DNA of 57,939 nucleotides from Bacteroidia bacterium (GTDB taxonomy: Bacteria > Bacteroidota > Bacteroidia > M30B66): positions 1 through 57,939 of the forward strand of contig JAGYKL010000021.1 of assembly GCA_018401705.1 (NCBI GenBank), written 5' to 3'. Below, in pieces: positions 17,051-48,938 of the stretch; the stretch's first letter is position 1; every line of letters starts with the position of its first letter. The translations under genes were made by a program, and so were the position numbers. Below the pieces are notes generated by a model. The model was not told the origin of the DNA. It worked only from the letters and a program-made list of their open reading frames with translations, and searched no databases.

Positions 17051-17128
17051 AATTTATTCGATAATTCAATATTATCAATGAAATTAAATGTGAGTAGAAT
17101 TCCTCATCCTACTCACATTATTTTTAAG

Positions 17129-17516
17129 TGGAGCCGGCGGGAGTCGAACCCGCGTCCAAACAAGGAATTTGCAAGCTTTCTACATGCTTATTTCATCATT
17201 GATTTTCGAGTAAAAACCGGAGAAGAACACACCTGTTATTACCTTATTCCCGATTAATTTCGAAGTATTATCAGGATCCTAATACTTCTATCTCAAACTT
17301 TACGATGCCTCATAAGGAGCGACTTGAGAAAACTCCCCTAAGAGACAACTAGGGTTTACCTATTAGGCAAACAGGCGTAATCCAATTGGATTAGGCAGCT
17401 AGTGCGTAGTTGTTTTCGCCATTTATAGGCTCGTGGATTGTATTTACGGGTTAACCTCACAACACCCGGCATGCTTACTTACCTATTGCACATGCTGTCA
17501 AAACCTTGACGGCCCC
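17129..17516 (-). ncRNA. ssrA: tmRNA (transfer-messenger RNA)
   Basis: On the minus strand the RNA starts GGGGCCGTCAAGGTTTTGAC and ends CGGGTTCGACTCCCGCCGG followed by CTCCA. The two ends form the acceptor stem of the tRNA-like domain with a T-arm GGTTCGACTCC; the terminal CCA is not encoded. The tag reading frame lies at 17420-17391 and reads GENNYALAA then stop, with the usual C-terminal ALAA that directs tagged proteins to Clp-type proteases. tmRNA with SmpB rescues ribosomes stalled on broken mRNA. Length is about 388 nt, normal for a one-piece tmRNA. Confidence 0.95.
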
Positions 17517-47762: not shown

Positions 47763-48515
47763 ATGAGAAGTCTATTAGTAATTTTCATTTTTAGCCTTTG
47801 GAACTCAGTCTTTATTTAGTTTCGAGTCCCCAGTTTAGTAAAGGAAATAAGGCATATGAAGAGGTAAGTTTGCTGATGCCATAATGTATTATGAGCAAAT
47901 TATATCTAAGAAAAGCTTCAATCTTGGGCTCTGTATTTTAATTTAGGGAATTCATATTATAAGTTGACTGACTACCCAAATGCAATCTTAAATTATGAAA
48001 GAGCTTTAAGACTTGCTCCAAATGAAATTGATATTCGTTATAATTTGGATTTGGCGAATGAAAAAATTGAAGATAAAATAGAACCATTGCCTCAGTTGTT
48101 TTACAAACGTTGGTTTTATTCTATAAGAAATGCTGCGGGGCAGGATGTTTGGGCTTTATTGTTTTTAGTTTGCTTCGCCGCTTCAGTTCTAGCATTGGGA
48201 CTCTTTTTCCTAAGCTCTAAATCAGGCTTTAAGAAACTTGGCTTTTATGGCTGCTTTTCATTTTTAAGTGCAGCAATTGTATTTATTTCTCTTGCATTTT
48301 CAATGCGACAATGGCAGGAAATTCAAAGGGAAGCAATCGTTTTTGCGGGAAGTGTTTCAGTAAAAAGTTCACCGGTTGAATCGGGAACAGGTCTATTTGT
48401 AGTGCATTCAGGTACTAAAGTCAAAATCACCGATGAAATAGGCGAGTGGAGGCGAGTTAAACTTGCAGATGGAAATGAAGGCTGGTTGCAAAGCGGCGAT
48501 ATTGAAGAGTTGTAA
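47763..48515 (+). CDS. batE: BatE, TPR and SH3-like membrane protein, frame broken near the 5' end
   Basis: The ATG at 47763 starts a signal peptide (MRSLLVIFIFSLWNSVFI), 4 bp after batD. Frame breaks between about 47815 and 47950 interrupt the first TPR (readable as KGNKAYEE, KFADAIMYYEQIIS, SWALYFNLGNS). From 47964 it is intact: TPR DYPNAILNYERALRLAPNEI, two membrane helices (about 48150-48305) and a C-terminal SH3-like domain (SVSVKSSPVESGTGLFVVHS then WRRVKLADGNEGWLQSGDIE). It closes the bat operon. Restored length is about 250 residues. Confidence 0.8.
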
Positions 48516-48938
48516 TATCTGAATTGAGATGAGCCTTCTTAACATTTCTGCTATTTCTGGATTAGGAATTAAGTAGCTTGTAAATTAAGCAACAAAACAA
48601 AATTAGAAGGTGTAGTTGATGCATTTGCCTTTTATTGAGAATCATTTTCTTGAATAAAGCTATATAAATGCGTTAGGGATTGTAGTGGAAATACTTTTGT
48701 GAAGTATGAGCAAAAGATTGAAGCGTAAAGCCCGCCCGAAGGGAACGCCCACATAAAATCATTCGCATTGGTCTCCTTATTTATCAAGCAAAACTTGTTT
48801 TCGAATGGTTCAGTTTTTCCCTTGACTGAATTTTTGATATGGATGCTAGTGCGTTGTCCTTACACATGTAATTTTCTCGCGCAATCTTGCTGAAAAGAGC
48901 TCAACTCTGAGCTAAGTCTTCACGTAAAGTATGGCGTG
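48516..48938. other. 423-bp intergenic region with an RNA-like element
   Basis: No coding frame with recognisable similarity is seen between batE and the SprB-repeat gene. The middle holds the structured element at 48670-48750. No clear TAnnTTTG box was found before the SprB gene. Confidence 0.55.
48670..48750 (+). ncRNA. Candidate structured RNA or repeat element
   Basis: Three pairings can be drawn: GCGTT (48670-48674) with AACGC (48744-48748); CTTTTG (48694-48699) with CAAAAG (48711-48716), an 11-nt loop; and GCGT (48723-48726) with the same ACGC (48745-48748), enclosing a CCC-GAA-GGG turn (48735-48743). Fixed-looking segments are AGGGATTGTAGTGGAAATAC and AAAGCCCGCCCGAAGGGAAC. It is far more GC-rich at its 3' end than its surroundings. 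I believe similar GGGATTG-GTGGAAATAC...AAAGCCCG...GGGAACGCCC elements recur between genes in Bacteroidota genomes, but this is memory and not checked. Confidence 0.4.

Follow-up and report, generated by a model that had tools for sequence, protein, structure and literature searches.

The Flavo-1 repeat between a batE-like and an SprB-like gene of a Bacteroidia bacterium: an extended, covarying fold and its reading as a mobile DNA repeat

The window (the whole stretch of 57,939 nucleotides analysed here, contig JAGYKL010000021.1 of a Bacteroidia bacterium) contains a BatE-like gene and, further along the same strand, the gene of a large SprB-repeat adhesin. The gap between the two is 420 bp long and houses a copy of the Flavo-1 repeat. 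No ORF of at least 60 aa is found between the batE-like stop at 48515 and the SprB-like start at 48936, in line with an earlier note on this DNA, made from the sequence alone, which placed the element correctly and saw no coding frame that explains it. The features of the locus are the following:

47910–48515, + strand: BatE-like gene (TPR and SH3_3), upstream of the element, with its stop at 48515
48669–48754, + strand: Flavo-1 copy in full, the extent found with the independent extended model R2 (79.7 bits, E 8e-18)
48670–48674, + strand: P1 outer stem, 5' strand GCGTT, covarying with 48744–48748
48676–48692, + strand: P2 arm, 5' side GGG-A-TT-GTA-GT-GGA-AAT (Rfam RF01705 alignment and covariation)
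48679, 48682, 48684, 48687 and 48689, + strand: A.G and G.A positions of the P2 5' side
48694–48716, + strand: apical hairpin CTTTTG-(11 nt)-CAAAAG, which differs among copies
48717–48733, + strand: P2 arm, 3' side ATT-GAA-GC-GTA-AA-G-CCC (Rfam RF01705 alignment and covariation)
48735–48743, + strand: P3 side hairpin CCC-GAA-GGG; other copies have different complementary sequences in its place
48744–48748, + strand: P1 outer stem, 3' strand AACGC, covarying with the 5' strand
48749–48754, + strand: CCACAT, the single-stranded 3' tail that ends the conserved unit; the family consensus here is CCAAAA
48936–55433, + strand: SprB-repeat adhesin of 2165 aa with a type IX secretion signal, downstream; its start lies 181 bp past the element

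The copy proper runs from 48670 to 48748 on the + strand, followed by the tail. In the apical hairpin CTTTTG occupies 48694–48699 and CAAAAG 48711–48716, with A48693 bulged; this hairpin and the CCC-GAA-GGG turn had both been pointed out before, and both are in the sequence where they were placed. Past the element, an AT-rich region (48757–48903, + strand) forms a nested hairpin (-32.9 kcal/mol, z -1.69) and is possibly a real sprB leader or promoter region. Elsewhere in the window, a tmRNA gene (17126–17516, - strand, 154 bits) is the sole Rfam match over the cut-off.

Based on a cmscan search, Rfam family RF01705 matches 48662–48741 over model positions 1–76 of 76, with 41.2 bits and an E-value of 1.4e-7 to 3.1e-7 (the upper figure at genome scale). 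The Rfam gathering score of this family is 42; the window copy is 0.8 bits short of it, so the Rfam pipeline would skip it, and three further Flavo-1 copies of the source genome exceed the cut-off. To avoid circularity, the model R2 was trained only on copies from named genomes of other Bacteroidota, which were retrieved by one 22-base pattern and then aligned; its search finds the window copy as the single match in the window. R1, an earlier model that scores the window copy at 74.6 bits, was trained on that copy among others and is therefore not independent. The locus also shows the traits of the family: it belongs to Bacteroidota, is intergenic and multicopy, and its conserved arm contains GNA/GNA internal loops and undergoes compensatory changes. 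Homology thus identifies the element as a copy of Flavo-1, a repeat of Bacteroidota. The motif was first described by Weinberg et al. 2010 (PMC2864571), whose verdict was a probable RNA that is not cis-regulatory; Rfam types RF01705 as 'Gene; sRNA', and the papers found that name Flavo-1 give no function for it. The statement in the earlier note that Bacteroidota intergenic regions contain similar elements is borne out by many homologues, and its statement that no description was known is superseded by that publication and by RF01705.

Based on the alignment of copies from relatives, the conserved unit is 80–110 bp long and larger than the Rfam arm. It is a three-way junction in which P1, the long arm P2 and P3, a side hairpin that varies, come together, and a CCCAAA-like tail follows. 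The arm, a GGG..CCC stem interrupted by two GNA/GNA internal loops, corresponds to the Rfam Flavo-1 motif and forms the main body of the element, which had been overlooked before; in it, Watson-Crick steps alternate with five conserved G.A-type pairs (G.A or A.G). Among 106 distinct copies, 96.1% of the pair cells are standard and all 18 of the 18 modelled pairs are changed on both sides; the covariation score is 0.559, whereas shuffles give 0.146 and slid partners no more than 0.091. This alignment was fitted to the model, and two less dependent tests of P1 carry more weight. With the independent 3' anchor CCC[A/T]A, P1 is fully paired in 26 of 36 copies vs at most 15 in 2000 shuffles, and the fifth P1 pair is T:A in 32 and G:C in 21 copies (concordant 53/53, Fisher 3e-15, 81 copies from named genomes). 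Concerning the non-Watson-Crick positions of P2, one is A.G in 95 copies and G.A in 12, with no exceptions, and at others A.G is exchanged for C.A. Such exchanges match the behaviour of sheared-type pairs, a geometry that we infer. The folding energy of the element is unremarkable (RNA z -0.95, DNA z -1.84); it is by homology and covariation, rather than by folding energy, that the element stands beyond chance. In several G000 copies (L010, L013, L172) P3 has grown by sequences such as TGAGCTTGTCGA, resembling the insertion of a different short repeat in the loop.

The earlier note had proposed two competing pairings that exclude one another as a switch would. The outer one, GCGTT/AACGC, lies at 48670–48674 and 48744–48748 and covaries across copies. 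The overlap with the inner one is literal, as GCGT at 48723–48726 and GCGTT at 48670–48674 can each pair with the ACGC (48745–48748) of the 3' strand 48744–48748, and it is this overlap that would favour a two-state RNA switch controlling sprB. The competition is not conserved. Among 70 other copies the tetramer at the inner site is ACGG in 19, GCGG in 16 and GCGT in 8, with ACGT and others also present. The inner GCGT is within the 3' side of P2 and pairs inside the arm, which accounts for its letters and explains the variation at this site. Since GCGT is found in 8 of 70 copies while P1 covaries in 53 of 53, mutually exclusive pairing is rejected, and the inner complementarity is a 4-bp coincidence. 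Also, Flavo-1 is missing from syntenic batE–sprB gaps, and copies elsewhere adjoin unrelated genes. With no conserved alternative pairing, the switch is refuted as a conserved mechanism, and control of sprB by it is extremely improbable.

The number of Flavo-1 copies per genome ranges from 0 to at least 73. The extended-model search finds 2 to 51 copies per genome in the family of the source genome, which itself has 9–10; class-wide, copies are present in 28 of 60 genomes, and two genomes reach at least 72–73. The counts are higher than those of the Rfam model (G006: 7 vs 48, G002: 4 vs 34, G003: 25 vs 51). Near-identical copies are found in unrelated flanks within single genomes, which shows recent copying there: 98.9% identity over 87 bp in G001, 94% over 108 bp in G005, and four copies about 90% alike over 80 bp in G003; the similarity stops at P1 and the tail. 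In G004 and G008, both from a different genus of the same family, the same SprB-type gene comes after batE and the gap is free of Flavo-1. Because near-identical copies lie in unrelated flanks, the similarity ends with the unit and the batE–sprB gaps of two relatives are empty, Flavo-1 is best described as a mobile repeat, as the earlier note had guessed among other possibilities. The order of batE and the SprB-like gene is kept in G004 and G008; other genes follow batE in G003 and G005. No base-exact empty site was found among the relatives compared, since these are too diverged.

Some insertions, and probably many, are old, as two copies of G001 have orthologues in G000. These orthologous copies are seemingly better conserved than their flanks, which could reflect host function or gene conversion. 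At these two sites (L170 2904–2986 and 17684–17766 of G001 vs G000 contig C13 near 36483 and 44750) the copies seem to have their 3' half in common within each genome and not across the two genomes, a pattern suggestive of concerted evolution or gene conversion in an 80-bp repeat. Concerning placement, 96 of 106 copies are clear of ORFs of 100 aa, and the neighbouring genes are convergent in 32 cases, antisense in 26, sense in 17 and divergent in 13; the copies favour gene 3' ends and have no sense preference. Close pairs (less than about 300 bp apart) are head-to-head in 7 of 7 cases among the matches listed. Carriage by phages was also considered and rejected, as two patterns gave 6 exact matches in viral contigs.

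Under selection as RNA, a stem puts up with G.U much more readily than with A.C; a stem that acts at the level of DNA has no such reason to do so. The P1 and P2 stems give 1562 cells, of which 1526 are Watson-Crick, 9 are G.T and 8 are A.C. The helices of SRP RNA from these genomes, which are equally well aligned, contain 45 G.U and one A.C (Fisher 5e-5 for the ratio and 4e-20 for G.U among changed cells, p-values that are only indicative as the copies are related to one another). In tRNA stems, counted in few tRNAs, G.U amounts to 7–9%. The pattern-selected set has 31 G.T vs 7 A.C, an excess attributed to ascertainment, because the pattern fixes the 5' strand, which is rich in G and T, and G.T is then the expected mismatch. 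The counts agree with the transcriptome of F. psychrophilum, in which Flavo-1 matches are indistinctly sense or antisense and many are untranscribed (PMC9723704). As G.T is as rare as A.C and the transcriptome points the same way, a DNA-level role is preferred; this is an argument and not a proof, and it suggests that the fold matters in DNA rather than in RNA. That Flavo-1 is instead transcribed and works as RNA, be it a structured small RNA or an element of a UTR, is the view of Rfam in its typing and is close to that of Weinberg et al.; internal loops rich in G.A are typical of RNA, structured 5' transcribed regions contain some of the F. psychrophilum copies (PMC9723704), and the apparently better conservation of orthologous copies would fit. 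Against it stand the wobble ratio (9:8 vs 45:1), the lack of orientation bias to genes, the strand-indifferent and often silent transcriptome matches and, as weak evidence, the lack of any promoter-like site found on the + strand near the window copy. We consider this reading unlikely; of the earlier guess at a structured RNA or 3' UTR element, the structure stands and the RNA part is weakened by the same wobble, orientation and transcriptome results.

Concerning what moves Flavo-1, no mobilising enzyme was found among the RAYT/Y1_Tnp genes or the genes between wider-spaced pairs. A REP-type element that depends for its movement on a RAYT (Y1/HUH transposase) encoded in its own genome would suit the REP-like habits of Flavo-1 (extragenic, at gene 3' ends, in head-to-head pairs; cf. 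PMC3733652), and three genomes, G003, G004 and G022, have Flavo-1 close to a Y1_Tnp gene. At two of these three loci, however, the Y1_Tnp genes (L083, L056) carry their own short hairpins of different sequence, 27 of 30 Y1_Tnp loci are without Flavo-1, and the Flavo-1-rich genomes G002, G017 and G023 have no match to the Y1_Tnp or RAYT model at E 1e-4. Mobilisation by RAYT was rejected on account of these own hairpins and of the mostly Flavo-1-free loci, and we regard it as quite improbable. At L056 1300–2000 and L083 1580–2320 the hairpins flanking the Y1_Tnp (IS200-like) genes, e.g. CAACCCCGGAGGGGTTGAATGT and CCCCGAAGGGGTGACATT, are apparently the real REPs of those transposases. A bias to the lagging-strand template is expected for a single-stranded DNA transposon of the IS200/IS605 type. 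Such a bias is seen in Mucilaginibacter (complete genome, 18 of 22 copies, p 0.004) and is reversed in G029 and G041 (6 of 21 and about 3 of 10); it is inconsistent across the three genomes (27 of 53 pooled). No transposase is present between wider-spaced pairs, which enclose ordinary genes, one ABC-F ATPase and one toxin-antitoxin pair; the latter is RelE/ParE-like and lies between two head-to-head copies about 0.85 kb apart (L076 1494–2514). A further possibility is that the host keeps Flavo-1 as a DNA structure serving recombination, as a site for a nucleoid or replication protein, or as an insulator of convergent genes. The phylum-wide conservation of sequence and fold, the preference for gene 3' ends and the retention of copies at orthologous sites would agree with this; a range from 0 to at least 73 copies among genomes of one class is hard to square with housekeeping, and presence or absence at syntenic sites also speaks against it, so that we hold such a function to be very unlikely.

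The window element is a copy of Flavo-1, which is best seen as a REP-like mobile DNA repeat of Bacteroidota that is non-autonomous and would here be a passive insertion, a reading to which we give a probability of 0.62. One strand would fold as a three-way junction (P1, P2 and P3) with the CCCAAA-like tail after it, and the fold would act as a DNA structure, either as a hairpin in exposed single-stranded DNA or as a cruciform. A putative enzyme acting in trans may recognise this fold for copying or insertion. The G.A-type pairs would be unstable C.T mismatches on the other strand, and in this way could tell the enzyme which strand to use. The window copy would have been inserted passively between batE and sprB, probably as a passenger rather than a genetic switch. 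The wider proposal, that Flavo-1, although counted with the abundant small-RNA families of bacteria, is no RNA gene and instead a mobile DNA hairpin of the whole phylum, whose three-way junction and G.A-type pairs are read by a putative enzyme of single-stranded DNA folds, is tentative and in our judgement falls somewhat short of an even chance.

The window copy itself is ordinary; the result at the level of the family may not be. If the fold does act at the DNA level, what Rfam lists as an 'sRNA' family should be given the type of a mobile repeat. The annotation of Bacteroidota intergenic regions would improve, with the extended model raising the number of copies found in well-populated genomes two- to eightfold, and the mobilisation system of Flavo-1 would become searchable. 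The wobble test (G.T vs A.C) is also a simple discriminator between DNA and RNA level for other repeat-like 'ncRNA' families.

Compared with known systems, Flavo-1 shares some traits with the MITEs of Bacteroidota, e.g. those of Porphyromonas gingivalis, which are reportedly short, non-coding and dispersed, as Flavo-1 is. It differs from them in having neither simple IS-type terminal inverted repeats nor a target-site duplication in the near-identical pairs, of which few were compared. The REPs (GTAG and CGTC superfamilies) are multicopy, extragenic, mostly 3' of genes or between convergent ORFs, folded, and arranged in head-to-head dimers (PMC3733652). Flavo-1 resembles these and the BIMEs in being extragenic, folded, near gene 3' ends and in inverted dimers; the CGTC-type REPs, which form head-to-head dimers, likewise have no known dedicated transposase (PMC3733652). 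However, REPs are simple palindromes of 20–40 bp with a GTAG or CGTC tag (PMC3733652), whereas Flavo-1 is 80–110 bp long, with three helices, conserved G.A-type pairs and no such tag; also, the RAYT genes flanked by the same repeat that go with REPs have no counterpart here, Flavo-1 being near 3 of 30 Y1_Tnp genes and those at L056 and L083 having hairpins of their own. Flavo-1 as modelled in RF01705 is the same element in the same phylum, and the Rfam model (the P2 arm, 76 positions) matches the window copy end to end. The difference is that the Rfam model consists of P2 only, without P1, P3 and the tail; the window holds a new copy of a known family, and the description of this family is now fuller.
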